24,733 nucleotides of DNA from a virus: positions 1 through 24,733 of IMG/VR virus record IMGVR_UViG_3300030520_000106. One strand, 5' to 3'. Made by a program: the position numbers and the translations under genes. The notes beneath the pieces were generated by a model, which made no database searches, was not told where the DNA came from, and was given only the letters and a program-made list of their open reading frames with translations. Shown here piece after piece: positions 1,777 through 23,273 of the stretch. How positions within the stretch are numbered: position 1 is the first letter of the stretch; the number at the start of each line of letters is the position of its first letter.

Positions 1777-1806
1777 AATGTAGGGCGATGCGGCGGATTC
1801 GGTCAA
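1777..1806 (-). promoter_or_regulatory. Promoter-like site 9, before the lysis genes
   Basis: TTGACC followed by G, 18-base spacer, then TACATT, reading on the minus strand in the 62-base gap after the lectin-like gene. It is the only one of the nine sites followed by a leader with a Shine-Dalgarno sequence: the ATG at 1754 lies 22 bases beyond the second hexamer. The expected transcription start is near 1770. Confidence 0.55.
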
Positions 1807-1816
1807 AACGGCTGGA

Positions 1817-2659
1817 TCAGCTGTAGCGCGCGGAGAGCCACCCGTCTGCGGTCGTCAAGTCGGAGCTCGTGTAGACGCGGCTAACCGTGAAGACCTCCAG
1901 CAGTGTTCCATACATGCTGTCCGCGGCTGTGGCAGAGAAATTGCCGAAGCCTTGCGGAGAAGACGAGCTGATCCAGGTCGAGGTGAGAGCGGGACTGGAA
2001 TAGACGACCAGCGTGTCCTGCGCACCGTTGATGTAAAGGTTCAACCCTGCTGCGGTCCCGCTGCCGTCATAGGTCATGTGAACGCGGTAGAGCGTACCCA
2101 CCGTGAGCGCCAGCGTCCCATGCACCAGGATACCGCTGGGTTCTCCAGCAAAAGAGTCCATGAGGATATTGATCTTGCCTGCGCCGAAAGCGGCGGCGTT
2201 GGCGCCGGGCATGAGAGCCCAACCACAGCCGACCTCACTTGAAGGTGCGAACGCGCCGACGACGATACTTTGGCCCGCTCCCGAAGCGCAGCCTCCATAG
2301 ATGAAGGCCAGGGAAACGGAAAACGGCTTGTTCCAGTCGTAGACGCTTTTCGCACCTGCCGCAGTAGAGAGGAAGCCGCTCGCGGGGCTAGCTCCATAGT
2401 TGTTACTGACGCCGCCAAGGGAGCCAACGGCATCGGGGGTATATGGAATCGACCCAGTGAGGACCGCAGCATTTGTACTGCGCTCGGTGATCGAAGTCAG
2501 GAGGCCCGACGCGACGGTAGCGTTGGTGGAAAAATCCTCCCACAGATCACAGGCCAGTCCAAAGAAGGCGGGCGGCCCAACGGCATTGTCGATGCGAAGT
2601 CCGGTGCCCGCGAAGTTTGCACCGGCGATAGTGAATAAAGCGCCTACAGCACTGCTCAT
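1817..2659 (-). CDS. Lectin-like (LamG/concanavalin-fold) tail-associated protein
   Basis: The protein has 280 residues, rich in Ser, Gly, Ala and Thr, and looks all-beta. The pattern around residues 185-216 (YRVHMTYDG, then NLYINGAQD) is that of LamG/concanavalin A-like jelly rolls: a strand with 'his/thr-tyr-asp-gly' followed by 'leu-tyr-ile-asn-gly'. Such domains bind carbohydrate. In tail tip regions they serve as receptor-binding or virion-decorating proteins. The ATG at 2659 has AGGAG upstream, about eight bases away. The gene starts 28 bases after the tail-spike stop and should be cotranscribed with it. No catalytic motif is visible. It could be a tail appendage protein or a secreted adhesin. 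Confidence 0.6.
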   Translation of the reverse strand: MSSAVGALFTIAGANFAGTGLRIDNAVGPPAFFGLACDLWEDFSTNATVASGLLTSITERSTNAAVLTGSIPYTPDAVGSLGGVSNNYGASPASGFLSTAAGAKSVYDWNKPFSVSLAFIYGGCASGAGQSIVVGAFAPSSEVGCGWALMPGANAAAFGAGKINILMDSFAGEPSGILVHGTLALTVGTLYRVHMTYDGSGTAAGLNLYINGAQDTLVVYSSPALTSTWISSSSPQGFGNFSATAADSMYGTLLEVFTVSRVYTSSDLTTADGWLSARYS

Positions 2660-2687
2660 GATGATCTCCTGGGTTCAACAAGATTGG

Positions 2688-5018
2688 TTAGGTTAGGGTG
2701 AGTTTGAAGTGCGGGGCCCAGTGGTACATGTTGGGGTGCCCGTAAAAGGAAGGCGTGGGATTGGAGTCTCGGAGATTGCCGCGCGGGCCTGTAAGAGGAC
2801 CGCCGAATGCCCCAGGGATTCCCGACCATCCATAGCCGACAGATCCGCCCACTGGGGAAGACCCTAGCTGCAGGACGACGCTTTCCTGATCCGCGCCGAT
2901 GGCCACGCTGAGAATCGGAACCACCGCACCAGTCGAGTCCCAAACCTCGAATCCCTTCATGCTCCCGGGGATCGTAGAAGCTGTGTCCGCCACTTGGATC
3001 GTGTCGAACACAAGCGGTCCATTCACCACATTGAACGGAAGGACGATTGTGTTGTTCACCAGGAGCGGTGTCTTTGGAATAACCGCGGTCGACGGGAGGC
3101 CGAGCATAAAGTTCAGCTTCGTTTCGGCGTAATACTCCCCAAGCCATTGCTCGGTTGGTCCAGTGAAGTGGATGCCATCCTGTGGAGCCGCCGGCACAAA
3201 GTAAGTTGCTGTGGAGAAGAGGAACAGCGTCGGATGGTCGAGACACACCTGCAGCTGCTGAGGAGCGACCACCGGCGTCACCAAGCCGTTCACAGCACGC
3301 CCTGGACTCACCACTGACCAGCGACCTGGTTGCATGATGACCAAAGGCACCGATCTGCTCTGCCCCGTCGCTGATTGGATGGCGGTTTGTACCGCAGTCT
3401 GATAGGCCACCATGTCCGCGTAAAAACCAGTGTTCCCCGCACCGACATCGTCGTTGATGCCAAGAATCACTGTCACGCTTAGCGCGCCGACGGTGCCATA
3501 GGTCGAGCCTGCAGTGCTTACTGCCGCTGCAACGATCTGCTCGAACTGCGAGAACATCGTCGTACCAGGAGCGATGGCCGAGTAAGGCGCGCCCGGCAAG
3601 GAACTGTCGGAGGCCAAGAAGCGCGCCTTCGTGCCTAACGTCAGCAGGTCGCTTGTCATTCGATCGCAGATACCGTTTAGTGCAGTCTCGCCGAAGAGGG
3701 CTCCGGCGATCGCTCCCGTTCCTAGCTCCAAGAATTGGATCAAGGGAACAAACGAGGTTAGGCCCGTGAGAGGCGGGATCGTCAGCGTATACGAACTGAT
3801 GGACCCATTGCGCACGCCGGCACTGAACATGAGGTTCTGCCATGGCTGCGTGGTACTTACGATCGGGACCGAGTTGACGCCTGACCCGGTGCTTTCCCCG
3901 GTGACGAGTTCGAGATTCAAACCGAAGAGAGGCGTGAGCGTGCCGGCGCGAAGGTTGGTTGCTTTGCCGATGGGCGCGGGGACTGGGTAATCGGCCAGCT
4001 GCCCAACGATCTTGCCGTCTACGGCTCGGATTCCGAAGGCGACGTTACCTTCCCGATCCGCGACAACGAGGCCGACTAGGCCCTCCTCGTTGGATGGGAG
4101 CGGGCTCTGCACCGCTGCACCCCATTCAAGAGATGGAAGTGAAGCGTTGCCGATAACCTCCAGGGTTGCAATCTGCGTGGTTCCGTCTTTCAACACCACC
4201 TGAGAAAAGTTCCCGTTCCCATCTCCGATACCGAAGACAGCGCCGACGGGATTGGTCGGCAACGGGGTGAAGCTGACAGCACCATTGACCGAGAGGGACG
4301 TCAACACCGCTTGCCCGTTGCCCAGGATGAGCAACGCCGCATTCCCTTCAGAGTCCGCGATAGCATAGATGGCCCCGTTTGTCTGCGACACCATGGGAGT
4401 GATGGTGAGCTCACCCACCGTGACCTGCTCCAACGCAAGAGGCCCCGTATACGCACCAGAGAGAACGCCGGCGAGAGAGTTGATCATCCACCAGGTCGGC
4501 GACGCGTTGGGCGTGTTTCCCGTATTGCCATTCGCTAGGCTGATATAGCTTGAGCCATCGGTAAAGCTCACCACGGCGCCCCGGTCGTAAACCGTGCCAG
4601 CGTTATAGGGACCGCTGGGGACCAAGGAGAGACCCTGCGGTCCAGTCTGCACGACGGCTTGCGGTGCGACGTTGGGCTCATAGGTATCGAGGTCTAGGGT
4701 GGCGCTGGTGGTCTGAACATAGCGGATGGTCCAGATCGGAACGCCGGTAGCGTCTGAGATCACTAGGCGATAGCAGATATTTGGGGGGCTCGTATAGCGT
4801 GTGTCTGCTATCCAGGTATTCGCCGGCAGCGCACCGTTTGTGATGGCTACTTCACCTTCTGCAGCGATCGGACCGCCGGCGCCGCCGGCGACGGCCGTGA
4901 TGGGATTGTCCTTGTCATCGGTGGTGATGACGGTGAGGATACCAGCGGTGAGCTTATTGCCGAGGGCATCCTGGATGTTTGCAGCGGTAAGGGCAGAGTA
5001 TTCGGCCGGTGTTGGCAT
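2688..5018 (-). CDS. Tail spike with SGNH-hydrolase (deacetylase-like) domain
   Basis: The protein has 776 residues from ATG at 5018, chosen because the promoter-like site ends five bases before it; an upstream ATG at 5108 would overlap the J-like gene and adds an arginine/cysteine-rich leader. Residues about 135-180 resemble a carbohydrate-binding module of the CBM5/12 type (Gly-Pro-Tyr, valine-Tyr, Ser-Tyr, ending Trp-Trp). The region of about 200-345 has repeated beta units. From about 365 there is an SGNH esterase: S376 in GES, N522 in GIND, D614 and H617 in DGIHFTG are blocks I, III and V. Such domains remove acetyl groups from surface polysaccharides. It follows the J-like tip gene, so it is probably the receptor-degrading spike. 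Confidence 0.8.
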   Translation of the reverse strand: MPTPAEYSALTAANIQDALGNKLTAGILTVITTDDKDNPITAVAGGAGGPIAAEGEVAITNGALPANTWIADTRYTSPPNICYRLVISDATGVPIWTIRYVQTTSATLDLDTYEPNVAPQAVVQTGPQGLSLVPSGPYNAGTVYDRGAVVSFTDGSSYISLANGNTGNTPNASPTWWMINSLAGVLSGAYTGPLALEQVTVGELTITPMVSQTNGAIYAIADSEGNAALLILGNGQAVLTSLSVNGAVSFTPLPTNPVGAVFGIGDGNGNFSQVVLKDGTTQIATLEVIGNASLPSLEWGAAVQSPLPSNEEGLVGLVVADREGNVAFGIRAVDGKIVGQLADYPVPAPIGKATNLRAGTLTPLFGLNLELVTGESTGSGVNSVPIVSTTQPWQNLMFSAGVRNGSISSYTLTIPPLTGLTSFVPLIQFLELGTGAIAGALFGETALNGICDRMTSDLLTLGTKARFLASDSSLPGAPYSAIAPGTTMFSQFEQIVAAAVSTAGSTYGTVGALSVTVILGINDDVGAGNTGFYADMVAYQTAVQTAIQSATGQSRSVPLVIMQPGRWSVVSPGRAVNGLVTPVVAPQQLQVCLDHPTLFLFSTATYFVPAAPQDGIHFTGPTEQWLGEYYAETKLNFMLGLPSTAVIPKTPLLVNNTIVLPFNVVNGPLVFDTIQVADTASTIPGSMKGFEVWDSTGAVVPILSVAIGADQESVVLQLGSSPVGGSVGYGWSGIPGAFGGPLTGPRGNLRDSNPTPSFYGHPNMYHWAPHFKLTLT

Positions 5019-5023
5019 ACAAA

Positions 5024-5053
5024 GTCTTAGGCCGGGTCGCGCGAAACAGTCAA
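5024..5053 (-). promoter_or_regulatory. Promoter-like site 8, before the tail spike
   Basis: TTGACT followed by G, an 18-base spacer, then TAAGAC, and only five bases to the ATG at 5018. The site begins just before the J-like stop codon and continues into the gap. No Shine-Dalgarno sequence is visible. The second hexamer and the GTTTC after the first are the same as at site 1 (23244-23273), 18 kb away. Confidence 0.65.
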
Positions 5054-5055
5054 AA

Positions 5056-8000: not shown

Positions 8001-9684
8001 TCACGCCGGGGTACTGGCCGCCACCGTACAGCGGGTCGAGCATCATGTCGGCCGCCACGCACGCGGGGTTGTCTTCCTCGAACGCCTGCAGCTCGGCCGG
8101 CAGCATGTTGTTATCCAACGTGCGCAGGCCGTGGGTGATGTTGGCCGTAACGTTGATGTCCGAGCCGCCGAGCTGCCCGGTGGCCAGTGCGCGAACGCCG
8201 ATCAGGACCATATTCGGGTAAGCGAGATCCTGCAGCTGGATCTCGTTGACCGAGTGGATCCACATATCCTGCCCGATGTTCGGCGAGAAGTTGTCGCCGG
8301 GATAGAGCGTGTGTTTGTCCTGGCAGCTGCCGTATTTGGTGACCCGGATGTCATAGCAGCCCGGCGTGAGTCCATAGATCGACGTGCGGTTATAGCAGAC
8401 CTGCGTGGTCGCGTTGCAGTAGGCGACGTAGCCGGCGCCCCAGCTCGTGACCTCGACCTGGTTGATGTCCGGGTCAGTCATCTGCCACTCGCCGATGAAG
8501 GTCTTGGTGTAGCTGGAGGTCGACAGATCTGGATTGACGACGAGAACCGTTTCCGTTCCAGACCAGGGATCGCCGGGATTGTGGGGCCCGTTGTCCGAGG
8601 CGTAGACGATTCCGCTATCAGGCGGCTGGTCGGTGGCCACCGCAACCCAGGTGTTGTAGGTCTCAATCTCACCGGTGATGGGGTTGTACGCGACGACATC
8701 CTCGGTCGCGTCGGGTTGGATGACCGGCTGCCAGTCATTTGCTCCAGTGAGTGAGTACTCGACCAGGTAGGTGATCCATGCCGGCACGATGTTGCCGTCG
8801 TTGGTGTGGACGAATACGCCGTCCGGAAACTGGATGTCGACCTGGAGGATCTGCGTGAGCGTGCCGGTACCAGGAACGATGACGGGCTGAGCGGCGAGAC
8901 ACTGAGCGTCCTGCGGATAGCCGTTGACGATGCGGTTGAAGTTGCCGATCGGCGTCTGGTCATTCGATCCCAGGCGCGTGTAGTACTGCACGTTCGCGTA
9001 CTCGGCGATCGACTTGCCGTTGATCTCGATGTCGGTGATCGAGCGCGCCGGGCCGAAGCCGAAGCACACCAAGACGTTCAGGTACTGATCGATGCCCTCG
9101 ACGTCGATGAAGCTGCTTATGATGTTGCCGCCCCAGCCGAATGTGCCGTAGCCCTTGGGGATCACGGTTCCGGACTGCGCGAGCGAATGGGGCCCGTCGA
9201 AAGCGTAGGTCGGCGTCTGCTGCTTCGCTGCCGGCGTCAGCAGGCTCGTGATCGCGCTTATCGCCAGGTTGCCGACGATGCTGATGGATCCACCTAAGAT
9301 GGCGTTGCCCGTGACCGTCGAGACCCCTAACGCCGCGCCAAGGCCTGCGCCAACTCCGGAAGCGATCAGCGCGATCGACGCCGCGGCGATCGCAACCTCG
9401 CCTAGGGCTTTGAAGACAGTTCCGTTGCCAATGTTCGGGCTAATGACGATGCAATCACCGTCACGCGGTGTGATCTCGTTCCAGATCGAGCGCGGCCAGA
9501 CATGACCGTTCAGCGAAACAATTATGTCGTCGAGGAACGCTTTGGATTCCCCATCAGCCTGGATCCCTCGAAAGGAATGCTGCAGAAGGTATTTCTCAAG
9601 GGTTAGGCCCGATGGGTAGATGTCGATCTTCTCAAGGCCAACAGACGGCTGTAGCGGGTTCGTTACGCGGACGATGCGAATCAA
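5056..9684 (-). CDS. J-like tail tip / host-specificity protein with C-terminal Hint domain
   Basis: The protein has 1542 residues. Residues 1-90 resemble the beta-grasp tip assembly protein gpI; about 93-150 is a hydrophobic glycine/alanine segment; about 158-900 carries the central tip-protein core of the gpJ family. Fibronectin-like and jelly-roll (from N1078, NLLQGSTF) modules follow, then a glycine-rich linker and a Hint domain at 1403-1534. The start is TTG at 9684, overlapping the K-like stop (TTGA), with GGAGAG upstream. No separate gpI gene exists, so gpI and gpJ functions appear fused. It would form the central tip that contacts the host receptor. The intein-like end is unusual for the family. 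Confidence 0.85.
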   Translation of the reverse strand: MIRIVRVTNPLQPSVGLEKIDIYPSGLTLEKYLLQHSFRGIQADGESKAFLDDIIVSLNGHVWPRSIWNEITPRDGDCIVISPNIGNGTVFKALGEVAIAAASIALIASGVGAGLGAALGVSTVTGNAILGGSISIVGNLAISAITSLLTPAAKQQTPTYAFDGPHSLAQSGTVIPKGYGTFGWGGNIISSFIDVEGIDQYLNVLVCFGFGPARSITDIEINGKSIAEYANVQYYTRLGSNDQTPIGNFNRIVNGYPQDAQCLAAQPVIVPGTGTLTQILQVDIQFPDGVFVHTNDGNIVPAWITYLVEYSLTGANDWQPVIQPDATEDVVAYNPITGEIETYNTWVAVATDQPPDSGIVYASDNGPHNPGDPWSGTETVLVVNPDLSTSSYTKTFIGEWQMTDPDINQVEVTSWGAGYVAYCNATTQVCYNRTSIYGLTPGCYDIRVTKYGSCQDKHTLYPGDNFSPNIGQDMWIHSVNEIQLQDLAYPNMVLIGVRALATGQLGGSDINVTANITHGLRTLDNNMLPAELQAFEEDNPACVAADMMLDPLYGGGQYPGVTLANINRFIDKWVAWAEMNDELVADGNGGSIRRHVFNGVFDSDGGNLWNQVNAVGNMSRAQLIPIGRDYDVFIDGPDVPVQIFTMGNMAQDSFSETWLELDARANQIEVQFADATRSYKQDNPIAYMDPAFQDAGVTIKNMRFNALGITIPAQAWHFARYKERCNEFLLRSGAFSCDVGAVACRAGNVIILSHDVPQWGWSGRTMPGSTASAVIMDRNDLVSTGGTSYSLVVLHPAILRYSGTVGAVSQVIDSTGYTVGTSIAASTFDGDNRITRAVLTRDGIAYDCAIVSSAVGSLIVTPPPGYTPATGDTYQLYDTDVLETCPVTAVTMRNGIQTVTLGTPLSAAPVDYAIYLYGVTGAQKLARVTSVRKASDFRAKIEWIDYDPEVYVDATPVIGETSAATTSNPGVTSLLGSESWTLVSGTYAGSANLSWKNGSDTVGVAIYAQNVVTAPLGVQTSLPQMVARLTNQATNWSTPAQVGTTIEYTVVGFDVNNNFVGFNSAPNVTIAAVGIAVNLLQGSTFQTGFAFWSVSPRAGDTFLPDLTDDGEAVYTTVGTALTAAQMICFQNVPSTKWAVGDYLMLSGYVEDTCVNGAAPNVGSVLLSIVFLNSSGATISSVSATAALNGATPLLKRYNTASTIIPAGTTLVSATASIAGTSLNIPVGSTVNLNHFLLEIATSGQTAPSAWADIDVSGNVLDIFTLGSSTGLRVQGSVVPTFTGTFAYTSTSSGLVISWSNLVIAWPDGGFTYVSDGSMTISGLTATTEYYAFLYFDIINGGVKAVTPTTPIGTPEILSAAYDVLADAACKQDGRVALTPGGFTATTAASGATGGVGGGVGFRCTVRGTELPTPEGLLSNEDIKARFDAGEEVFLIGREGPERILSAEWVAVDEWYRVQVLGFAMFGGSASLPLKVRGGGHRWCSDIASGSQVETVKGYRDFLVTRMEEPNEVLAIELTGPSHEYLVVDGVWTHNQKAMPTIP
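5083..5478 (-). other. Hint (intein-like) domain at the end of the tip protein
   Basis: Codons 1403-1534 of the J-like gene. The domain starts with C1403, right after a glycine-rich linker, with CTVRGTELPTPEG as block A. A block-B-like histidine lies at H1480 (GGGH), and it ends with VVDGVWTHN (H1533, N1534) as block G. At 132 residues it has the size of a minimal Hint or bacterial intein-like domain, with no room for a homing endonuclease. The residue after the terminal Asn is Gln, not Cys/Ser/Thr, and only eight residues follow. Self-cleavage is therefore more likely than protein splicing. Recognition is by motif only. Confidence 0.7.
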
Positions 9685-10091: not shown

Positions 10092-10855
10092 GCCACGCTC
10101 GCGACGGCAGCGCCGTTGGTGTCGATGCCGGGGAACGTCCCAATCCGGATCACGTTGTTATGCGCCTGGCAGCCAGTGGTGCCGTCTATCGTGTGCGAGC
10201 ACGTCGTCATCGAGCCGATGTAGCCGCACGGCGCACCGGGATTCTGGAAAGCCGTATTGCCGGCGGCCAGAGCAGCTGCGGCCGCAGCCTGCAGCGCGGG
10301 CGAGTTGTACTGCCAGATACAGAAGTTCGGGCGGTACATCGATATAGGAAAGAGCCGGCGCAGGGGTGAGCTCGCGCCGAGTTTAAGCTTCACCAGCTTG
10401 GCGTCCGACGTGGTCGATGTGACTGTGAACGCGATAGACAGATCCGGCTCGCCGGCGGGGTTGGTCGTATTGACCGCATAGAGGTAGAGGTTGGCGCCGA
10501 CGACGCCGGCGTACTGCTCGATGATTCCCTGCAGCACGCGCATGACGTTCGAGGCCTGGATCTCGCAGTCCGGCACGCTGCCGTTGCTGGAGACAGTCAG
10601 GTCGCCCATCGTGAAGTTGAAGGGCTCATAGACCTGCGGACCTGCGCCGTCACCGGCGTCGAAGGTAATCGGCTCCAGGTTCCTCACCAGGCGAACGTGT
10701 GACTGCGCTACGGTGAGGCCAGGTTGCGCCGGCAGACCGTTGCCGGGATACTCGATATCCATCAGCAACAGCCATGGCTCGCCGCTGGCGAGCTTGTGGC
10801 GTTCCATATTGGCGATGACGGAGAGAAGCGAGATCGGAGGGCTTGGCTGCGACAC
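10088..10855 (-). CDS. Minor tail protein, lambda gpL-like, probable Fe-S protein
   Basis: The protein has 255 residues from GTG at 10855, chosen because GGAGG lies seven bases before it and the preceding stop is adjacent; a longer frame reads back into the M-like gene as arginine/serine-rich noise. Four cysteines in the C-terminal part, C179, C210, C219 and C229, match the cysteines that hold an iron-sulfur cluster in the gpL family; C210 sits in CGYIG, a family hallmark. An alanine-rich insert (about 187-199) separates the first from the second cysteine. Position between M-like and K-like genes agrees. It should be part of the tail tip baseplate. Confidence 0.85.
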   Translation of the reverse strand: MSQPSPPISLLSVIANMERHKLASGEPWLLLMDIEYPGNGLPAQPGLTVAQSHVRLVRNLEPITFDAGDGAGPQVYEPFNFTMGDLTVSSNGSVPDCEIQASNVMRVLQGIIEQYAGVVGANLYLYAVNTTNPAGEPDLSIAFTVTSTTSDAKLVKLKLGASSPLRRLFPISMYRPNFCIWQYNSPALQAAAAAALAAGNTAFQNPGAPCGYIGSMTTCSHTIDGTTGCQAHNNVIRIGTFPGIDTNGAAVASVA

Positions 10856-10856
10856 G

Positions 10857-11222
10857 CTACACCTCCCGAATCGTGAAGGTGCAGTCCTGGCGGAACTCTC
10901 CCTCGACGTTGCCGGAGTCTGTGTATGCCGGCAGGGTGCTGAACCGGACCTGGTAGTTTTGCGGGTTCTTCGGGTCGCGCGGATCCGGGAACAGGAACAC
11001 CTGCGCACCGTAGATCGTTTTGCGCTCGACGAAGCTCTGCAGCTTGAGGACGTCGCCGGGCTTGAGCATGTCGATCGAGATCTCCCACTGCCTGCGCATG
11101 CGTGTGTAGCGTGCGCGCGTGGTCTCCATCCCGTTCTCCATTGGGTCGCGGAGAGTGGGATCGATCATGGTGCCGTGCGTCTTGAGCGCGGGCTTCCGGC
11201 TGAGCTGGGGGAACGTAAGCAC
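10857..11222 (-). CDS. Minor tail protein, lambda gpM-like
   Basis: The protein has 121 residues and matches the general layout of gpM/DUF2460-type tip proteins: FPQLSRKP at the start, TRARYTRMRRQWE in the middle, a loop with FVERK and FLFPDP, and a VRF strand near the end. It initiates tip formation below the tape measure. I place the start at GTG 11222, six bases after GATAAC of promoter-like site 7; a GTG in the same frame at 11270 lies upstream of that hexamer and would add residues unlike the family. No Shine-Dalgarno sequence is seen. It opens the M-L-K-J unit, and its stop is one base from the L-like start. Confidence 0.75.
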   Translation of the reverse strand: MLTFPQLSRKPALKTHGTMIDPTLRDPMENGMETTRARYTRMRRQWEISIDMLKPGDVLKLQSFVERKTIYGAQVFLFPDPRDPKNPQNYQVRFSTLPAYTDSGNVEGEFRQDCTFTIREV

Positions 11223-11228: not shown

Positions 11229-11258
11229 GTTATCGCTCGGATTGCCGGATTCAGGCAA
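11229..11258 (-). promoter_or_regulatory. Promoter-like site 7, before the M-like gene
   Basis: TTGCCT followed by G, an 18-base spacer, then GATAAC, and six bases to GTG at 11222. The same second hexamer followed by CTCG occurs before the helix-turn-helix gene. Its first hexamer lies back to back with that of plus-strand site 6; together they form TTGCC and GGCAA arms seven bases apart. Confidence 0.65.
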
Positions 11259-11271
11259 AACGACGCACACT
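11242..11271 (+). promoter_or_regulatory. Promoter-like site 6, before the plus-strand tail gene
   Basis: TTGCCG followed by G, an 18-base spacer, then CACACT, and six bases to GTG at 11278. It is the only site on the plus strand and lies exactly before the only plus-strand gene. The second hexamer is the weakest match of the set, but spacing and start distance fit. No Shine-Dalgarno sequence precedes the start. Confidence 0.55.
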
Positions 11272-11277: not shown

Positions 11278-12045
11278 GTGCTGAAAATGACCAGCGACTT
11301 CTCCGGACCACTTGCCGGCATCGAGCAGATGCTCGGCGACGATCTGCCGTTCACGATCGCGCGGTTCCTCACTATGCAGGCGCAGTCCGGACAGAAGGCA
11401 GCGCGCGCCGGTGAAAAAGGCGTCTTCAAACTCCGCAACGACTGGACTACACAGAACACGAAGATCACGCCGGCGAAGAAGACGACCCTGTTTTCCGAGG
11501 TTTACACAGACACCAGCAACCGGCAGACCGGAGCTGAGGATTACCTTCCCCGCCAGGACGAGGGCGGCGAACGCGTTCCTGTAGCCGGCCACAGGTTCCT
11601 CGCAATCCCGACCAAGTATCTCCGCAAGGTTGCACCCGGAATCATCCCCGACGCGCTGCGCCCGAAGAACCTGCTGCCGCCGGGCATCGAGATCGGCGTC
11701 AAGTATGCCGGCAGCTTCAACTCGCGCACACGGCCGCGCCGCGGGCTTGGACGGGATACCAGGAAGAAGCTCGGCAACAGCGACTTTATGGCCTTCGTAC
11801 AAACTACAAAATCAGGAACGCTGTGCATTTTCGTCCGGCACGGCGGCGTGGGCTATCACGCCGGCAACAACGACGCCGAGCCCTGGTACACGCTGGTCCG
11901 CAATGCACACATCAAAGCAATCTTTCCGATGGAGCAACTCGTCGCCGAGGCCCTCGACGCGGACCAGGAGAAGAACTTCGATCGCGCGGCCGCCGAAGTA
12001 CTCGTCAACAACGCCCTGAAAAATGGATTCCAAGTTCGTTTCTAG
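11278..12045 (+). CDS. Minor tail protein Z-like, the only plus-strand gene
   Basis: The protein has 255 residues from GTG at 11278 (an ATG three codons later at 11287 is the alternative). Its overall pattern is that of tail-completion proteins related to minor tail protein Z: an N-terminal helix with many small residues, FKLRNDWT, a GGERVPVAGHRFLAIPT strand pair, and a C-terminal alanine-rich helix (AAAEVLVNNALKNG). Identification is by pattern and moderate. In lambda, Z lies between FII and U on the same strand as its neighbours; here it sits inverted between the tape measure region and the M-like gene. It is divergent from the M-like gene, and its TAG shares the tetranucleotide CTAG with the opposing stop. 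Confidence 0.7.
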   Translation: MLKMTSDFSGPLAGIEQMLGDDLPFTIARFLTMQAQSGQKAARAGEKGVFKLRNDWTTQNTKITPAKKTTLFSEVYTDTSNRQTGAEDYLPRQDEGGERVPVAGHRFLAIPTKYLRKVAPGIIPDALRPKNLLPPGIEIGVKYAGSFNSRTRPRRGLGRDTRKKLGNSDFMAFVQTTKSGTLCIFVRHGGVGYHAGNNDAEPWYTLVRNAHIKAIFPMEQLVAEALDADQEKNFDRAAAEVLVNNALKNGFQVRF

Positions 12046-12578
12046 TGCAGCAGCTTCACCTTGCCGCCCTGGGACCGCAATTTGCCGGTGAAGACTTCGC
12101 GCGTGGCGGCGATCAAGCTGATCCTGGTCCGCTTGTAGGCAGCCTTCTTACGCAACAGGATCGCCGCGCCGGTGAAGGTAGCGCGCGTCAGCGTCCAAAT
12201 CTTCTCGCGCATGTCAGCGACGTGGGCGTCGGCGAGCTCGTAGCTCATCCCCAGCTCAACGTTCGGCTTCATCATCTCTGCCGTGACCTCGGGAAAGTCG
12301 CGACCATAGATGTAGCCCTTGACCAGGAGCTCGTCAAGATGGATATAAGCGTCGGTGATGACGCCGCATTTCTGCCGGGCGTCATGGCCGTCCCAATCCT
12401 GCTTATAAGCAACAGCCATCCCGATCAGCGAGTCGAGCGCGTCCTCCGCCGCTTCCCTGGTGAGAATGACACGGTGGCCGCGAGACCCGCTGGGTGCGCT
12501 ATCGCTGGGTTCGTCCAGGCGGGTGAGCACGCCTTCGAAGAGGATCCGGTTCGGATGTTTGTCTCTACCTGATTTCAC
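12042..12578 (-). CDS. Prohead-protease-like protein after the tape measure gene
   Basis: The protein has 178 residues. Its layout resembles capsid maturation proteases of the HK97/herpesvirus assemblin fold: an N-terminal strand ILFEGVLTRLDEP, a helix, H65 in DWDGHDARQKCGVI, a strand pair LLVKGYIYGRDFPEV, then S112 in ELGMSYEL, and a late FTGAAILLRKKAAY block. H65 and S112 are candidate catalytic residues. A second protease of this kind is already fused to the capsid protein, and a tail-module position is unusual. It could instead be an inactive relative. The GTG start at 12578 lies six bases after promoter-like site 5, with no Shine-Dalgarno sequence. The stop interlocks with the opposing gene at CTAG. 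Confidence 0.5.
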   Translation of the reverse strand: MKSGRDKHPNRILFEGVLTRLDEPSDSAPSGSRGHRVILTREAAEDALDSLIGMAVAYKQDWDGHDARQKCGVITDAYIHLDELLVKGYIYGRDFPEVTAEMMKPNVELGMSYELADAHVADMREKIWTLTRATFTGAAILLRKKAAYKRTRISLIAATREVFTGKLRSQGGKVKLLH

Positions 12579-12584: not shown

Positions 12585-12614
12585 TGTATGCGGCTACAAG
12601 CTGGTTTCTGGCAA
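12585..12614 (-). promoter_or_regulatory. Promoter-like site 5, before the protease-like tail-region gene
   Basis: TTGCCA followed by G, an 18-base spacer, then CATACA, and six bases to GTG at 12578. It starts two bases beyond the tape measure stop codon and fills the 37-base gap. No Shine-Dalgarno sequence is visible before the start. Confidence 0.6.
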
Positions 12615-12615
12615 A

Positions 12616-15153
12616 TCAACTGCCTGCGCCGATTGCCGACGTTGGACCGCCCTGGGCGTGGTCCTCAAGGATTGTGTGGATGATGAACGACTTCATCTCC
12701 GAGTTATAGGACACCTTGGGTGCCTGCGCCGTCACCGGCTGGGACGACTGATTGATGATGTTGCTCTGCACGCTGATGCCGCGCGAGCCTCCACCACCGC
12801 CGCCGGTAAGCTGCGTGGCGAGGTCCTTGTTCGAGATGATCGATCCACCGCGCAGGGGCGGCTGCCAAACCTCCGGACCTTTCTCTCCGATGATCTGCGG
12901 TCCGCCGCCGGCGTTGTCTGTTCCGTCGGCGTGCTGATCGAAGAGCGAGGCCTCTATATCTGGGCCAGCCGTGGGAACGGAGCTGGATCCGCCGCCGCTG
13001 CCCATGCCCGCCAGCGCCGGGAAAAGCCACTTCTGTGCTGCGAGCTTGATCAGGAGGTCCGCGAGATCCTTTTCGATCGACATCGCCATCTTGTGAAACG
13101 AATCCTTGCCGCTGATGGTGGCATCGGCCATGCGCTCAGCCATGGAGGTCATGCCCTCGCCGAGAGTCTTCGAGAACTGTGCGTCGCTTTTCTGGCTCGG
13201 CCGGTTCAACTTATCGAGCTCCGCCTGCAGATCCTTAGCCTTCTTCAGGAAGTCGCCGCCGAGCTCGCTGGCCAGAGCCGTATATTCGGCGACCAGGACC
13301 TTGAGCTGTGCGGCCTCCTGGGCGTTGAGCTTGTTGATCGCATCGGCCGCTTCCTTCTTGAGCCGCGGGTCTTTTGCGGCAGCATCGTTCAACGCTTCGA
13401 CGGCGCGCTTATTGTCATCCTCGGCGTCAGTAATCTGCTTGGTGAGCTGCTCGATCTGCAGCTTCTTGACCTCGACCTCGCCCAGGGCGCGCACGTTCGC
13501 GGCGTCGGCCGACGAGCCGCCTTCGTTGGTGACTTTCTGTGCTTCGAGTTCCTTCTCCTGCCGAATAAGGGCGATCTGCGCAGTGATGCCATCATTGCGC
13601 TGCTTCTCCAGCTCCGCCGCCAGGCGAAGGCTTGCGATGTCCGAGGCCTTGTTACTGCCGGACGTTTCGGCCGTCGCGGCGCTCGAGTTCGCTGCACGCT
13701 TGGTTTCGAGTGCGTCGAGCTGCTCCTGGACCTGCAGCATCTCCTTCTGTGTGCGAAGCTCCTCGGCCGAGTTCCCGGACTTGTCGCGCTTTGCGTTCTT
13801 GTCGGCGTGCTGTTTGTCATAGAGCTGCTGCAGCGTGGCCTGCTTGGAGCGCAGGGCTTCGGCCTCGGCATCGAGAGCGTCATTCTGCAAGCGGAGTTTT
13901 TCTGCATAGAACTCCTGGTCGGCGACGAGGCCCATCTTGTGCTGAGCTTCGAGCTCTGCCAGCGCCGTCTGGTCCGACTCCTTCTGCTTGTCGGCTGCAG
14001 ATTTACTTTGCTCCTCAGCCAGCGCCGCGGCCGCGCGCGCGATCGAATCATCGGACTTGGCTTTCGCCGCAGCCGGCGCACCGTCAAAACCGCTGCCGGC
14101 ACCGCCGCCGCCAGCTCCGGAGATCAGTGGCGAAATCGCAGCCGAGCTATTGCCGAATGCAATGTCGTGCATGCCCTGCGCTTTCTGCTTGAGCTCGAGC
14201 GCGGCAGCCTGGTCGGTGCGGCCGGCCTGCGTCAGACGGCCGCCTTCGGCGATCGAGAACATCCCCTCAAGCGCAGCGGCCGCGCTATAGGCCACTTCCC
14301 CGATGAACGCGATGGTTTTGGAGAGATCGCGTCCCCAGCTCTGCATCGCTTCCATCTGCGACTTGCCACCGGAGATGATGCTGAAGATCTGCGTCAGCCC
14401 GGGTGCCATGCCTTCTGTCAAAGCTAGACCCGCACCCTCGATGTGCTGCTCGAGATCCTTCATGCGCTGGCTGGTGTCGGCCAGCGCTTTGGCGGTGTCC
14501 CCGGTCAGGACAACGCCGGCAGCCTCGGCGCGGGACTTGAACTCATCCCAATGCTCTGCGATCTCCAGCAGCATCGGGATCTGCGCGGAGCCAGCCTTGC
14601 CAAGCAAGCCCATCGCTAGCTCGTTGCGACGGATCGGCGACTCTGTCTGCCCCAGCACCGTGACGAAGCGATGGAACGCTACCTCAGCGCCGTCTGTGCG
14701 GCCGGCGAGGTCCTTGGCGTCAAGGCCCAGGGCTTTGATGAAGGTCGACGCCTGCTTATTCCCGTCGGCGGCCTGCCCGATCGTGCGACTCATCCGGCCG
14801 AGCCCATTGACTAGGCCGTCGAAGTCTCCACCAGTCACCTGTGCTGCATAATGCAGCACAGACAGCGACTCCACCGTGAGCCCGGTGCGCTGGCTGGCCT
14901 TGAGCAGCTGCTCCCCCAGCTCCATCGAACCGACGGTGAGCTCCTTCAGACCCGCGATCGCCTCGCGGACGCCCATGTACAGGCCGACCGTTTCAAGCGC
15001 GCTCTTGACGCGCTCCATGTTCTCAGCGATTTCAGAGGAGCTTTCCTTGCTCTCGTCGGCTGTGGCAGCCAACTGCTCGCGCACCATCTCGAGCGCTTTG
15101 CGTGCGCTCTCGCCATCGCCCTCGATCCTGATGACAATGCCGCGCGGTGCCAT
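12616..15153 (-). CDS. Tail tape measure protein
   Basis: The protein has 845 residues and is largely helical. It sets tail length and is ejected with the DNA. The N-terminal third (about 80-250) has the tail-tape-measure pattern with GLTVESL, GGDFDGLVNGLGRM and ALGLDAKDL; a long, charged coiled-coil region spans about 350-660. The C-terminal part has FPALAGMGSGGG, then GEKGPEVWQPP, the glycine-rich end typical of lambda gpH relatives. At about 0.15 nm per residue, a family rule of thumb, the tail would be roughly 125 nm. The ATG directly follows the frameshift product's stop (TAGATG), with CAGGGA upstream. Its position after the frameshifted chaperone confirms the call. Confidence 0.93.
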   Translation of the reverse strand: MAPRGIVIRIEGDGESARKALEMVREQLAATADESKESSSEIAENMERVKSALETVGLYMGVREAIAGLKELTVGSMELGEQLLKASQRTGLTVESLSVLHYAAQVTGGDFDGLVNGLGRMSRTIGQAADGNKQASTFIKALGLDAKDLAGRTDGAEVAFHRFVTVLGQTESPIRRNELAMGLLGKAGSAQIPMLLEIAEHWDEFKSRAEAAGVVLTGDTAKALADTSQRMKDLEQHIEGAGLALTEGMAPGLTQIFSIISGGKSQMEAMQSWGRDLSKTIAFIGEVAYSAAAALEGMFSIAEGGRLTQAGRTDQAAALELKQKAQGMHDIAFGNSSAAISPLISGAGGGGAGSGFDGAPAAAKAKSDDSIARAAAALAEEQSKSAADKQKESDQTALAELEAQHKMGLVADQEFYAEKLRLQNDALDAEAEALRSKQATLQQLYDKQHADKNAKRDKSGNSAEELRTQKEMLQVQEQLDALETKRAANSSAATAETSGSNKASDIASLRLAAELEKQRNDGITAQIALIRQEKELEAQKVTNEGGSSADAANVRALGEVEVKKLQIEQLTKQITDAEDDNKRAVEALNDAAAKDPRLKKEAADAINKLNAQEAAQLKVLVAEYTALASELGGDFLKKAKDLQAELDKLNRPSQKSDAQFSKTLGEGMTSMAERMADATISGKDSFHKMAMSIEKDLADLLIKLAAQKWLFPALAGMGSGGGSSSVPTAGPDIEASLFDQHADGTDNAGGGPQIIGEKGPEVWQPPLRGGSIISNKDLATQLTGGGGGGSRGISVQSNIINQSSQPVTAQAPKVSYNSEMKSFIIHTILEDHAQGGPTSAIGAGS

Positions 15154-15528: not shown

Positions 15529-15884
15529 TTTCCCGGCTGCACTGGAGTGGTGGTGTCGGCCATGAGCGCGACGACGACGGCGTTGAATATCTTCGTGTAT
15601 GTGAAAGGCCGAAGCTGCTCTGCCGCCATGTCCATCGTGAACTCTTCGCCGCGCTGTCTTGCATCAGCCTGCAGGCCTGCCCATAGGAAGTACTGCAGGA
15701 CCTCCATGTCCTTCAGCTCCACCCAGGACTTGCCACCGGGCAGCGACTTGGCCACATAGAGGGCAGTGAGGAATTGGCTCCCATACCTCTGGATGAGCAG
15801 CCAGGTGGCTCTCATATCGAAGATCAGGGTGCGAGGGATGTCGAGGTCGACGGGGATGGCGCCGCGCTGCAGTGTGAGTTCCAT
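15387..15884 (-). CDS. Tail assembly chaperone, short form (lambda gpG-like)
   Basis: Zero-frame product of 165 residues. Residues 1-112 are the folded chaperone: beta start (LTLQRGAIPVDLDIPRTL), then helices with LLIQRYGSQFL and DMEVLQYFLWAGLQ. From about residue 113 it becomes proline/alanine/lysine-rich, and after about 145 serine/arginine-rich, which is typical of a frame that no longer encodes the conserved part. The shift heptamer covers residues 117-119. It acts as a chaperone in tail tube and tape measure assembly. The ATG at 15884 has no Shine-Dalgarno sequence and lies six bases after promoter-like site 4; a palindrome covers the start codon. Confidence 0.85.
   Translation of the reverse strand: MELTLQRGAIPVDLDIPRTLIFDMRATWLLIQRYGSQFLTALYVAKSLPGGKSWVELKDMEVLQYFLWAGLQADARQRGEEFTMDMAAEQLRPFTYTKIFNAVVVALMADTTTPVQPGKTPATGTAAKPAAKAKPTPGPTKVSTSLKRSASPTRSSAGPRRSSGR
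15468..15474 (-). promoter_or_regulatory. Second possible slippery heptamer GGGCCCC
   Basis: On the minus strand the zero frame reads CCG GGC CCC, so G GGC CCC fits the X XXY YYZ rule for a -1 shift into the same extension frame, 60 bases after GGGAAAA. Strong G-C pairing makes it a poorer slip site; it may have no role. Confidence 0.3.
15528..15534 (-). promoter_or_regulatory. Programmed -1 frameshift site GGGAAAA
   Basis: The zero frame reads CCG GGA AAA ACG; G GGA AAA is a canonical -1 slippery heptamer, one base from the GGGAAAG of lambda G-T. The -1 frame runs open into the conserved chaperone extension. A GCCGGC self-complementary pair at 15520-15525 and 15496-15501 could form a downstream hairpin with an 18-base loop. 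Confidence 0.88.
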
Positions 15885-15903
15885 GCACAGTATCTATGTG
15901 CAT
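15883..15903. repeat. Palindrome over the chaperone start codon
   Basis: Perfect 7-base inverted repeat ATGCACA / TGTGCAT with a 7-base centre. On the minus strand its 3' arm includes the first two bases of the start codon, and its centre overlaps the second hexamer of promoter-like site 4. It could be an operator for a dimeric regulator or an RNA hairpin hiding the start. Confidence 0.45.
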
Positions 15904-15920
15904 ATCCGCAAAGCCGTCAA
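15891..15920 (-). promoter_or_regulatory. Promoter-like site 4, before the tail assembly chaperone
   Basis: TTGACG followed by G, an 18-base spacer, then TAGATA, and six bases to ATG at 15884. The first hexamer overlaps the T tract of the upstream terminator (TTTTTGACG). No Shine-Dalgarno sequence lies before the start, so a leaderless transcript is likely. Confidence 0.65.
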
Positions 15921-15955
15921 AAAGAGATGAGCCCCGCCAAAGCGGGGCTCATCTC
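15919..15955 (-). terminator. Rho-independent terminator after the tail tube gene
   Basis: A perfect 14-base-pair stem (15942-15955 with 15924-15937) has a GC-rich core, a 4-base loop and, in minus-strand reading, a run of five T directly after it. It begins 13 bases after the major tail protein stop. It should end most transcripts of the capsid-to-tube unit. Confidence 0.92.
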
Positions 15956-18109: not shown

Positions 18110-20272
18110 TTAGCTGGGCAACGCCGAGGTGCAGGCAGCGAAGCTCTCAATGTGGCGGACGTTGATGTCGTAGAAGGCATGCTCGGTGATGATGACCTTC
18201 GCGGCAGCGGCGCCGGTGACGTTGTCGACGATGACCTCGGACAGGCCCCAGTCGCCGATCAACAGCTGATCCCACACGCCGAGGATGATGGCGTGAAGGT
18301 TGGCTACGCTGTTGGCGGTGAAACCGGTGAGGTAGCTGGCGGCGGTGCAAAGCGCGCCGTAACCGAGCGGACCCGCCTGGATGCCACCGGCGCCGACCGT
18401 CGATCCATCGGGCCAGACCATCTTGGCCGTTGCCGCACCGGGCACCTGCGGAATACTGCGAGCGGCCGCGCGGATCTTCGGGGTGGTCAGCCAACGCATC
18501 GTGCCGATGTCGCCGTTTGCCGTGGAGATCACGGCTTCCATGTTGTTCCAGTCAACGTAGGTCGGAGGAACTCCGCCGAGTCCGGTGGTCACGGTTCCGT
18601 TGGCAGCTCGGGTGGTGCCCGCGAGGACGGCGGCTAGACCGCTCTGGTTGAGCAAGCCTAGCGGAACTGGTGCGGTACCCGATCCGGAGATGGCCGCCGT
18701 GTCGAGCGCACGCTGCAGAACCTGGTAGCGGTCCTCTGCGAGCAGCGGATCGATAGCCAGCGCCGACTGCGCGAAGAAGTCGCGGTAGTAGCTGTTCTGC
18801 ATGTTCAGGTGGTTGGGAGACATGATGAAGTCGCCCAGGGTGAGGTCGGAGTTCGTCGCGTTCGTGCCTTCCGTCACCCAGTTGCTGCTTGCAGCACCGG
18901 TCTGCTTCGGCATCTGGATCTTGCCCTTGAGGCCGCTCAGGTAACGAGCACCGAGAGCGAAGACCGCAACGCGCGAGCGAAGCAGCTCGATCGGGTCCTG
19001 CTCGACCACGGTGAAGTTGGTGGCCGTGCCAGCATTGCCGCCGGATGCGATCGTACGCTTGGCAGCCGCGGAAGCGCGGGAGCTGAGGCTCGGAATCAGC
19101 ACGCCATTGCCGATGCCGTCGATGCCGCGCTCACTCGCCAGCTTGCGAAGCGACTGGCTGACATCCAACACCAGGCCGGTTGCACCCTTGTCGGTGAAAG
19201 TGCCAGGGCTGCGGGCGTTGATGGCCGCCGCGTACGCATCGCGGAGCGAGTACTGCGCGAGCTCGCGGGCACTCATGCTGCCGAGAACTTCATCGCCGAT
19301 GGTGGGAACGTCTTCGCGACGCGAGCCTTCGATGATCGAGTTGGCGATCGAACGCTGGATCTCAGCGACGGGGACATTGAGCCCTTCAGCCGCGGCAAGA
19401 GCGCGTGCGTTGAACTCCTGAGGATACTGCGTATGCAGCGCACGGAGAGCGGTTTTACGTTCCGCCTCCTGGGCTGCGAGGTCAACAACTGCGGTGGGTT
19501 CCATGATGGGTGTCCTCTGTTCTGCTGGAGTGGTGGGGATGGTTGGTGCTGAACTTTCGGCTGCAGCGGCATCGGCAGTGCGCTGCGCCTCGGCCTGAGC
19601 GGTGCGCTCGGCTTCGGCCATGTCGGTGGTATCCGTGTCGTCGACGACGTCATTGCCGTTCTCATCGATCGTGCGGAAGCTGCGGATGTTGGGTTTGGGA
19701 TCGGAGGACCGACCGACGCCAACTGAGGGATCGGCAGGGACGGTGACAGGCGAGACCTCAAGGAGCGTCCACTGCGTCGCCGTATACGTGCGTTCACCGG
19801 TCTTGGCGTTCTCAGTGATGTCCCACTCTTCGACGGTGTAGCTGATCGAAACGTCTACCAGGATTCCACTGGCGATGTCAGCTTCCTTTTCGAGAGCGAG
19901 AGGGTTTGTGCCAAAGCGGCAAGTGACGCGGAGAGGATCTCCGAGCTCGTAGCTAACAGAGCGCCCGATGTGGGCGTCCATGTTGTGGTTGAAGAGCATG
20001 GCCACGCCGTTATCGAGGCGCTCGGTATTGAGCGCACCCTTGTCGTGACTGAGGATCTCCGTCCCGAAGTAACGCTGCACCGGCGTCGACGAGCTGACGG
20101 CCATAGTTACCGTGTGCGCGTCCTTGTCGTAACCGGAGAGCGTTACCTTGCGCTGCTGCAGGCCGAGGTGTTTGGGAACACCTCGCGCATCAAGCTCCGC
20201 GCCCACGGCCGCAGCGGCGGCAGAGAGGGAGCGCAAGATGCCGGGTTTCGGCTGGTAGGCGACTTCATTCAT
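18110..20272 (-). CDS. Prohead protease fused to HK97-fold major capsid protein
   Basis: A single 720-residue protein. Residues about 40-190 are an HK97-type prohead protease: H96 in LFNHNMD (followed by IGRS) and S142 in DVSISY are the candidate catalytic pair, with the hallmark LLEVSPVTVPADP after them. Residues about 205-330 are a charged/alanine-rich linker and a helical delta (scaffold-like) region. The rest is an HK97-fold capsid subunit. In most phages these are two genes. The protease probably frees itself and trims the delta region during maturation. The start has GATAAC of promoter-like site 3 eight bases upstream and no Shine-Dalgarno sequence. An internal in-frame ATG could yield the capsid part alone. 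Confidence 0.88.
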   Translation of the reverse strand: MNEVAYQPKPGILRSLSAAAAAVGAELDARGVPKHLGLQQRKVTLSGYDKDAHTVTMAVSSSTPVQRYFGTEILSHDKGALNTERLDNGVAMLFNHNMDAHIGRSVSYELGDPLRVTCRFGTNPLALEKEADIASGILVDVSISYTVEEWDITENAKTGERTYTATQWTLLEVSPVTVPADPSVGVGRSSDPKPNIRSFRTIDENGNDVVDDTDTTDMAEAERTAQAEAQRTADAAAAESSAPTIPTTPAEQRTPIMEPTAVVDLAAQEAERKTALRALHTQYPQEFNARALAAAEGLNVPVAEIQRSIANSIIEGSRREDVPTIGDEVLGSMSARELAQYSLRDAYAAAINARSPGTFTDKGATGLVLDVSQSLRKLASERGIDGIGNGVLIPSLSSRASAAAKRTIASGGNAGTATNFTVVEQDPIELLRSRVAVFALGARYLSGLKGKIQMPKQTGAASSNWVTEGTNATNSDLTLGDFIMSPNHLNMQNSYYRDFFAQSALAIDPLLAEDRYQVLQRALDTAAISGSGTAPVPLGLLNQSGLAAVLAGTTRAANGTVTTGLGGVPPTYVDWNNMEAVISTANGDIGTMRWLTTPKIRAAARSIPQVPGAATAKMVWPDGSTVGAGGIQAGPLGYGALCTAASYLTGFTANSVANLHAIILGVWDQLLIGDWGLSEVIVDNVTGAAAAKVIITEHAFYDINVRHIESFAACTSALPS
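19502..19518 (-). promoter_or_regulatory. Internal in-frame start with Shine-Dalgarno inside the fusion
   Basis: AGAGGA (19513-19518) lies eight bases before the in-frame ATG at 19504, codon 257 of the protease-capsid gene. Starting here would give a 464-residue protein containing the delta region and capsid, without the protease. The position, exactly at the protease-capsid junction, is what an independent capsid start needs. Confidence 0.55.
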
Positions 20273-20496
20273 GCGCGAGGGTTATCCTTCGCGGACGAAT
20301 TTTCTGTCAAATCAGCGCCGACCCAGACACATCGATTCCCTACACGGCGGAACTCCCGCCAGGTGGAGGGGTCGTCCGCAAGGATCTGGTAGACGCGCTG
20401 TCGCGAAATGCCGTATTTCTCGGCGACGGCACTCGCCGACATCGTCTGGCGAACGGCTCGAATCTGGTGACGCGTCGCGATGGAGAGGAATGACAT
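20269..20496 (-). CDS. Small helix-turn-helix DNA-binding protein
   Basis: The protein has 75 residues with a clear helix-turn-helix at about 19-41 (SASAVAEKYGISRQRVYQIL), of the kind in resolvase-type and small phage regulators, and a C-terminal WREFRRVGNRCVWVG segment. It probably binds DNA; the target is unknown. The start is ATG at 20496, seven bases after GATAAC of promoter-like site 2, with no Shine-Dalgarno sequence. The stop overlaps the protease-capsid start (ATGA), and that gene's promoter-like site lies inside its own 3' end. A small DNA-binding protein between portal and protease is unusual. It could regulate late genes or act on DNA during packaging. Confidence 0.75.
   Translation of the reverse strand: MSFLSIATRHQIRAVRQTMSASAVAEKYGISRQRVYQILADDPSTWREFRRVGNRCVWVGADLTENSSAKDNPRA
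20281..20310 (-). promoter_or_regulatory. Promoter-like site 3, before the protease-capsid gene
   Basis: TTGACA followed by G, an 18-base spacer, then GATAAC, and eight bases to ATG at 20272. The two hexamers are identical to those of site 2, which lies 223 bases upstream. The site lies inside the 3' end of the helix-turn-helix gene. No Shine-Dalgarno sequence precedes the start. Confidence 0.68.
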
Positions 20497-20503
20497 CGCC
20501 GAG

Positions 20504-20533
20504 GTTATCGCGGCGATGTCGAAAACCTGTCAA
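20504..20533 (-). promoter_or_regulatory. Promoter-like site 2, before the helix-turn-helix gene
   Basis: A full consensus first hexamer TTGACA followed by G, an 18-base spacer, then GATAAC, and seven bases to ATG at 20496. It lies wholly in the 43-base gap after the preceding gene. No Shine-Dalgarno sequence is seen. Confidence 0.7.
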
Positions 20534-20539
20534 ATCCGG

Positions 20540-22383: not shown

Positions 22384-22650
22384 CTAGTCGGCCCCTTCCT
22401 TGAATTCCCGCAGGAAGCGGACGAAATTGCGAGGATGGATCGTCGACTCAGATACGCGCTCGCCCACAATCAGTGGGGGTCCCTGTCGCACGACTCCACC
22501 GTCGGCGAAACTCTTAGACATTCCACGGAGCACTGCCGCAGCTCTTCGCCTCCTATGAAAATCATCCGCAATAGCCCGGGCAAACCCATAGGTCACTCCG
22601 AAAACTGCGGACCAGAGCGCCCCGATCAGGATGTATTGTGCATTTTCCAT
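22384..22650 (-). CDS. Small single-span membrane protein
   Basis: Not recognised. The 88 residues start with ATG at 22650, which overlaps the preceding stop (TGATG) and has GGAGG about seven bases upstream; a longer reading to 22749 would be arginine/histidine-rich and lie over the preceding gene. Residues 3-22 are a membrane segment (from NAQYILIGALW), followed by a basic stretch HRRRR. The second half has FADGGVV, LIVGER and ESTIHP, close to a pattern at the C-terminal end of tape measure proteins (GEKGPE with a following P). A membrane protein in a head module is unexpected. It stops directly before portal. Confidence 0.7.
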   Translation of the reverse strand: MENAQYILIGALWSAVFGVTYGFARAIADDFHRRRRAAAVLRGMSKSFADGGVVRQGPPLIVGERVSESTIHPRNFVRFLREFKEGAD

Positions 22651-23237
22651 CAGCGGCCTCCGAAGGTGATGCCGATGGTGTCGGAGCGAACCTTTTCGCC
22701 GCGGCGTCGGCGTGCACGCTTGACGCGGCCTTCGACGATGGCTTCCCACTTCATGAGGTCGAGGCGCGGCATCTTCGTGAGCTCGCGGTTGCCGATCTTG
22801 TACATGACGGCGTCGTCGAGCGCGGCACCCTCAAGTAGCTTCCTGATTGATCCGAGGAGCCTTTCGTTATAGGTGCGAGGATCAACCGGAGATGTGCCGG
22901 CGGGGTTCGGCTCGATGCGGATCTGTCCCTGGGCGAGTTCGAACCGTTGTGCATCGGCGTCGACGCCGAAGCAGACCCACTGATAGCGGCCAGGTGCATA
23001 GTTCAACGTGTCCGTACTGGCCAGCGTGAAAGCTGCGACACCAGTAGCGCCGACGGCCACGCCGGCACCGCCGATCGTGATGCGCGTGGGCACGTTCGAG
23101 ATGACACCGGTGAGGACGAAGAAAATACTCGCGCCGAGCGGCAAACGAGTTTGTACGGACCAGGCGTGCGCGTCGCCGGCACGCAGCCACGGAGGCAGAG
23201 CGGATTTCGGGTCGAGTGGGTTTGCGGGCCAAGTCAC
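22650..23237 (-). CDS. Protein in gpW slot: beta domain plus gpW-like C-terminus
   Basis: The protein has 195 residues from GTG at 23237, six bases after TAAGAC of promoter-like site 1. Residues about 22-115 look like a beta-sandwich (FFVLTG, FTLASTDTLNYAPGRYQW, GQIRIEPNP), as in adaptor or BppU-like domains. Residues about 125-185 are helical with KIGNREL and a basic end (KRARRRRG), like the head-tail connector gpW, which is normally about 70 residues. In gpA-type terminase/gpB-type portal phages gpW lies exactly here. I therefore infer a gpW-like connector with a beta domain added. This is a pattern-level assignment. A tail fibre attachment protein is an alternative. Confidence 0.5.
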   Translation of the reverse strand: MTWPANPLDPKSALPPWLRAGDAHAWSVQTRLPLGASIFFVLTGVISNVPTRITIGGAGVAVGATGVAAFTLASTDTLNYAPGRYQWVCFGVDADAQRFELAQGQIRIEPNPAGTSPVDPRTYNERLLGSIRKLLEGAALDDAVMYKIGNRELTKMPRLDLMKWEAIVEGRVKRARRRRGEKVRSDTIGITFGGR

Positions 23238-23243
23238 CGCATG

Positions 23244-23273
23244 GTCTTAGCGGCGTGGTGGTGAAACGGTCAA
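23244..23273 (-). promoter_or_regulatory. Promoter-like site 1, before the gpW-slot gene
   Basis: TTGACC followed by G, an 18-base spacer, then TAAGAC, and six bases to GTG at 23237. It begins seven bases after the CCA end of the tRNA-Ser(CGA) gene. No Shine-Dalgarno sequence is seen before the start. It may also reflect a break between tRNA and head transcripts. Confidence 0.65.

Follow-up and report, generated by a model that had tools for sequence, protein, structure and literature searches.

Late genes of a family of tailed phages are preceded by copies of a two-block repeat, most of them directly in front of the start codon, and these repeats are very likely late promoters that are read by the host RNA polymerase and give mostly leaderless mRNAs. 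The window, i.e. the whole stretch of 24,733 nucleotides (24.7 kb) that was analysed, comes from a viral metagenome contig and covers a tailed-phage late region with nearly all genes on the minus strand. It encodes a fragment of the terminase large subunit, the head-tail joining protein, the portal, a fused capsid/protease protein, tail proteins, the tape measure, a J-like tail tip, the tail fibre and an endolysin. Relatives of the window phage were found in viral metagenomes only, with capsid proteins 52-62% identical (45% in L115, a divergent family member), and comparison with sequenced bacterial genomes gave no close relative. Three relatives are near-complete and include their early regions (G001, 38 kb; G003, 42 kb; G007, 45 kb). 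As homologues of an integrase (G003 and G007) and of a repressor (all three) were identified in these relatives, the phage family is temperate.

Table 1 Predicted late promoters of the window and associated features. Positions are those of the window; the last column names relatives in which an orthologous site or gene was found.
Feature	Position	Strand	Sequence and start	Relatives
Predicted promoter, head-tail joining gene	23244..23273	-	TTGACC-N18-TAAGAC; GTG at 23237, 6 bp after -10	G001, G003, L012; hold-outs G008, G009
Predicted promoter, 75-aa helix-turn-helix (HTH) gene	20504..20533	-	TTGACA-N18-GATAAC; ATG at 20496	
Predicted promoter, major capsid/protease gene	20281..20310	-	TTGACA-N18-GATAAC; ATG at 20272, 8 bp after -10	L010, L012, L013, L021, L022, L023, L024, L115
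Predicted promoter, tail gene preceding tape measure region	15891..15920	-	TTGACG-N18-TAGATA; ATG at 15884	G001, G003, G007, L023, G008, G010
Predicted promoter, 178-aa gene	12585..12614	-	TTGCCA-N18-CATACA; GTG at 12578	G001, G003, G007, L023, G008
Predicted promoter, sole opposite-strand late gene	11242..11271	+	TTGCCG-N18-CACACT; GTG at 11278	G001, G003, G007 (no clear site in G008)
Predicted promoter, 121-aa virion gene	11229..11258	-	TTGCCT-N18-GATAAC; GTG at 11222	G001, G003, G007, G008
Predicted promoter, tail fibre gene	5024..5053	-	TTGACT-N18-TAAGAC; ATG at 5018, 5 bp after -10	G001, G003, G007, G008 (5-bp distance retained)
Predicted promoter, lysis unit	1777..1806	-	TTGACC-N18-TACATT; short Shine-Dalgarno leader, AAGGAG before GTG at 1760	G001, G003, G007 (leader kept, next called start 18-28 bp on)
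Intrinsic-terminator-like hairpin	15919..15954	-	AGATGAGCCCCGC-TTTG-GCGGGGCTCATCT; T-run continues into -35 TTGACG	
Conserved opposite-strand gene, 255 aa, inside late cluster	11278..12045	+	own site	G001, G003 (72-75% identity)

The preliminary description had listed nine copies of the repeat, all of which were found at the positions and on the strands given (Table 1). The plain pattern TTG[AC]CNG-N17-NANNNN matches the window 11 times compared to 5.4 matches expected from shuffled sequence, the two additional matches being intragenic (9305-9334, plus strand, and 14058-14087, minus strand); without positional context, the consensus is thus only about twofold enriched. When an ATG or GTG is required 5-8 bases after the second hexamer, however, nine matches stand against 0.74 expected (at most 4 in 200 shuffles). 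The position of the sites relative to ATG or GTG is not due to chance. To avoid circularity, a 34-bp matrix was built from the sites of the relatives and run over both strands, the sites of the genome under scan being excluded from the matrix each time. In the window, the matrix trained on relatives only gave nine matches above 9 bits, which are exactly the nine reported sites (2.0 expected above 9 bits and 0.2 above 13 bits), and both intragenic pattern matches fell below 9 bits. Above 13 bits, G001, G003 and G007 contain 7, 9 and 10 matches, respectively, where 0.2-0.4 were expected.

The preliminary description had proposed scoring such a matrix over relatives and had named, as a result that would speak against it, good sites being as frequent within genes as in front of starts. 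This was not the outcome: the scan of the window and the three near-complete relatives marked the same late genes in each, with the high-scoring matches nearly all located before late genes, and left the early regions of G001, G003 and G007 almost free of matches. The matrix also recovered sites at the same genes in three hold-out contigs (G008, G009 and G010), which were found later and lay outside the training set. When 2.9 million viral contigs were searched with the pattern only, 12 contigs were returned. Ten of these belong to this phage family and have the site at the start of the capsid gene, among them the divergent L115 and the almost identical pair L110 and L113; the other two are AT-rich chance matches. 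The motif is absent from metagenomic capsid relatives of at most 32% identity.

Across the family, 55 sites were aligned. Their two blocks, 18 bp apart, have the layout of sigma-70-type promoters, in which TTGACA-like and TATAAT-like hexamers are separated by 16-18 bp. The first block reads TTGA in 40 and TTGC in 15 of the 55 sites. The second has A at position 2 in all but one (54/55), whereas the T of sigma-70 promoters is mostly missing from position 6, where C occurs in 31 sites; this counts against the promoter reading. The G following the first hexamer, which had been described as fixed, is invariant in the window but occurs in only 41 of 55 sites across the family. Likewise, the exact 18-bp spacing holds for the window, but is near-rigid rather than absolute in the family, with one 19-bp case at the capsid gene of G008. 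A T precedes TTGAC in 50 sites, and spacer positions 3 and 4 are A or T (W) in 53 sites each. Apart from the -10 element, only a box spanning -3 to +9 relative to TTGAC carries information, and the spacer sequence has diverged between relatives. Positions -60 to -5 relative to TTGAC hold a mean of 0.05 bit (55 sites) and thus no conserved activator site, which is evidence against an upstream-binding activator. Late promoters of the activator-dependent type, as for P2 Ogr or Mu C, were rejected on the same grounds, as the region in which the activator site would be expected is uninformative.

The distance between the sites and the start codons is equally constrained. Measured from TTGAC or TTGCC to the called start, distances peak at 36 (18 cases), 39 (8) and 35 (5), with 0-2 cases elsewhere; 31 of the 48 TTGMC occurrences located 20-70 bp before called starts fall at one of these three values. 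Given sigma-70-type initiation, +1 would fall on the start codon or, for the capsid gene, three bases upstream. The spacing of 5-8 bases between -10 and start noted previously applies to the window, but it is not random within this range and is set gene by gene (mostly 6, capsid 8-9, tail fibre 5). In the relatives, it amounts to 6 bp for the head-tail joining, 121-aa and opposite-strand genes, 8-9 for the capsid gene, 6-7 for the tail gene starting at 15884, 5 for the tail fibre gene and 6 for the 178-aa gene (9 in G001). The start codon lies 6 bp after the -10 element in 21 of 36 sites, and in 31 of 36 the sixth nucleotide after the -10 is a purine (G or A). For the capsid gene, +1 is predicted 2-3 bases upstream of the ATG, so that its mRNA would not be strictly leaderless.

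Correspondingly, the preliminary description was right that Shine-Dalgarno sequences are lacking at the eight start-proximal sites and present at most other genes and at the site at 1777-1806. The median energy of the Shine-Dalgarno duplex is -1.1 kcal/mol for 33 start-proximal genes vs -6.65 kcal/mol for 96 others (p = 5.5e-11), and the affinity at the motif genes is below that of random sequence. Both the distance from -10 to start and the absence of a Shine-Dalgarno sequence are as in leaderless genes, and this site geometry together with the missing Shine-Dalgarno sequences suggests leaderless transcripts. GTG accounts for 16 of 37 starts. Leaderless GTG is efficient in mycobacteria but poor in E. 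coli (PMC4633059), so the frequent GTG starts count against the leaderless reading.

From the sequence, we infer transcription from these sites and its exact +1. The host RNA polymerase with a sigma-70-family factor would recognise a -35 box of the consensus GATTTGAC-N-G-N-W-W and, 18 bp from it, an NATAAC-like -10 element with A at position 2. The head-tail joining gene, the HTH gene, the capsid block, the tail block, the 178-aa gene, the opposite-strand gene, the tail-tip block, the tail fibre gene and the lysis genes would each form a separate unit, some virion units lying directly behind a terminator. Upstream of the head-tail joining unit, the window carries a tRNA-Ser(GCT) (23374-23465, minus strand) called by ARAGORN, for which only weak matches were obtained in the five genomes tried. 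It is followed by a putative second tRNA-Ser(CGA) (about 23281-23369, minus strand) that was not called by ARAGORN; its 3' CCA stops 7 bp short of the -35 of the head-tail joining promoter. The small HTH gene (20269-20496, minus strand) sits between the portal and capsid genes. An HTH-like gene with its own promoter occurs in the same arrangement in G007, and other relatives have different genes there. This gene was considered as a source of the activator and rejected, since the genes that occupy its position in G001 and G003 do not appear to encode HTH proteins.

Quite possibly, though we would not call it likely, the sites are ordinary host sigma-70 promoters that work without any phage factor, the leaderless arrangement being the style of the host and late timing resulting from copy number or relief of repression. 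Early promoters use nearly the same hexamers: G001 and G007 have an early promoter with a leader, TTGACA-17-GATAAA, in their immunity regions. Sigma-70-type promoters on the phages' own toxin genes are leaderless (TTGACA-17-TATAGT-6-ATG and TTGACA-17-TACATT-6-ATG in G001). In bacteria, TTG is found at -34 to -37 in Caulobacter housekeeping promoters (PMC4287350), and leaderless mRNAs, which occur in many bacteria, are made by Caulobacter (375; PMC4117421) and Sinorhizobium (171; PMC3616915). The late sites are nevertheless set apart by a spacing of 18 rather than 17 bp, the T before and the G after the first block, and the two A/T at spacer positions 3-4. The three early promoters examined do not have these features as a set, and the matrix matches almost nothing in early regions. 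Moreover, temperate phages with integrase and repressor need their virion genes silent in the lysogen. The earlier statement that the motif looks specific is unproven, given the near-identical hexamers of the early promoters.

Because early and toxin promoters use nearly the same hexamers and some are leaderless, the host polymerase very probably reads both the early and the late class and copes with leaderless starts. By themselves, the late sites would be weak owing to their 18-bp spacing, their weak -10 and the additional conserved bases around the -35, which suggests that a phage factor operates at the -35 box. Late timing would need a phage-encoded factor that acts at this box and the 18-bp spacing. 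As a tentative extension, a dedicated late initiation factor may bind over the -35 box, redirect the host RNA polymerase to promoters with 18-bp spacing and switch on nine or ten mostly leaderless virion units at once; these units would stand in place of the single antiterminated late operon usual in siphophages. A candidate by distribution only is a conserved early protein of 205 aa that has a weak SWIM-like zinc motif (CxC...CxH). It is encoded by G001 (L098 8049-8666, plus strand), G003, G007, L122 and L124, and among 2.9 million viral contigs scanned it occurred in this phage family only. The Pfam SWIM match of this protein lies under the curated cut-off, no match was obtained among phage records, and the mean pLDDT of its structure model (54) is too low for use. 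Among the early proteins scanned, which make up part of the early proteome, no sigma factor or RNA polymerase was found. The early region of G001 also encodes a single KH-domain protein of the RNA-binding KhpA/KhpB type (L098 8777-9019, minus strand).

We regard it as very improbable that the repeats are scattered repressor-binding sites like the stoperators of mycobacteriophage L5, in which case TTGAC would belong to an asymmetric operator. The sites are indeed asymmetric, co-oriented with transcription, located in short intergenic gaps and built around a TTGAC core, and the site at 11242..11271 overlaps the divergent promoter through a dyad (TTGCCGGATTCAGGCAA); a repressor could bind in addition. 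Stoperators, however, do not require that the motif genes lack Shine-Dalgarno sequences, nor do they account for a -10 block conserved at a fixed spacing together with the first block, and hardly any sites lie in the early region, although operators would be needed there most.

Least probable of all is a signal for translation initiation or another start-associated DNA element, like the Start-Associated Sequences (SAS) of cluster K mycobacteriophages: most copies do lie at a fixed short distance from start codons, but two blocks are conserved at promoter spacing, the site sequence has no affinity to 16S rRNA (pairing with the anti-Shine-Dalgarno is below random), sites at terminase and lysis genes lie upstream of leaders, the opposite-strand gene has its own copy, and terminators adjoin the -35. 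Sites upstream of Shine-Dalgarno leaders, the opposite-strand copy and sites that begin within a terminator U-tract thus argue for promoters rather than translation signals. With respect to the leaders, lysis sites are separated by about 16-31 bp from the start of the lysis gene, which has its AAGGAG, and in five relatives a site lies at some distance upstream of the gene for the terminase small subunit. The hairpin in front of the tail gene starting at 15884 has a perfect stem of 13 bp (-36.0 kcal/mol for a 53-nt stretch) and was not listed by a consensus terminator scan; strong hairpins occur at the orthologous site of G007 and G003, and similar hairpins also precede the lysis site in G001 and G007. 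The 255-aa opposite-strand gene has no Pfam match and at its 3' end shares 4 bp with the convergent 178-aa gene. L097-L104 and L127-L130 have in common a strongly conserved region, located between the first late promoter and the gene for the terminase small subunit (about 10850-10980 in G001, reversed orientation), that contains GCGGGTAACGCGCCACCGC and repeats of TTTCCGTTTCC-like motifs. It is probably the cos packaging site; the contig of the window ends before it.

Virion genes of siphophages are usually seen as one long late operon with one or two promoters, and expression levels are set by Shine-Dalgarno strength and coupling. The phage family described here appears to set late expression gene by gene, through about nine promoters that are nearly identical and mostly leaderless. 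If this is true, much of virion assembly would depend on leaderless translation, the major capsid protein included; this would offer a clean natural test of leaderless mRNA competition late in infection and would predict a host lineage in which leaderless GTG starts work well. The matrix is also of practical use as a marker by which late promoters and the correct start codons can be recognised in related phages from metagenomes.

Compared to known systems, the sites share with leaderless sigma-70-family promoters of bacteria (Caulobacter, Sinorhizobium, mycobacteria and Deinococcus-Thermus) a +1 predicted on the start codon, the absence of a Shine-Dalgarno sequence and ATG or GTG starts, but differ in that they form a late set throughout the phage, combine 18-bp spacing with a weak -10 and an extended -35, and are conserved at each gene between divergent phages. 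The middle promoters of T4, which depend on MotA and AsiA, have a conserved box overlapping the -35 region at a rigid distance to the -10. Their box sequence and spacing are different and they serve middle genes, whereas late genes are concerned here, and the early proteins scanned include no MotA or AsiA homologue. The known phages Rhodobacter RcCronus and Roseobacter CRP-406, which have related virion proteins, possess compact late operons by annotation. The middle and late transcripts of Thermus phage P23-45 are reportedly leaderless. Its late-gene promoters are read by the host RNA polymerase and are of the extended -10 type (PMC7403470); they are -35-independent, while the -35 box is the most conserved part of the sites described here. 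L5 stoperators and cluster K SAS are also short, asymmetric intergenic repeats, mostly located before genes and co-oriented with transcription (PMC9283540, PMC3203893), but they are single 13-bp blocks and SAS have the potential to pair with 16S rRNA, in contrast to the two promoter-spaced blocks without Shine-Dalgarno sequence in this family. Searches of the open literature gave no siphophage for which a similar set of leaderless late promoters is described, which is not proof of novelty. Leaderless phage promoters as such are already known, and the set described here is a variation on them.
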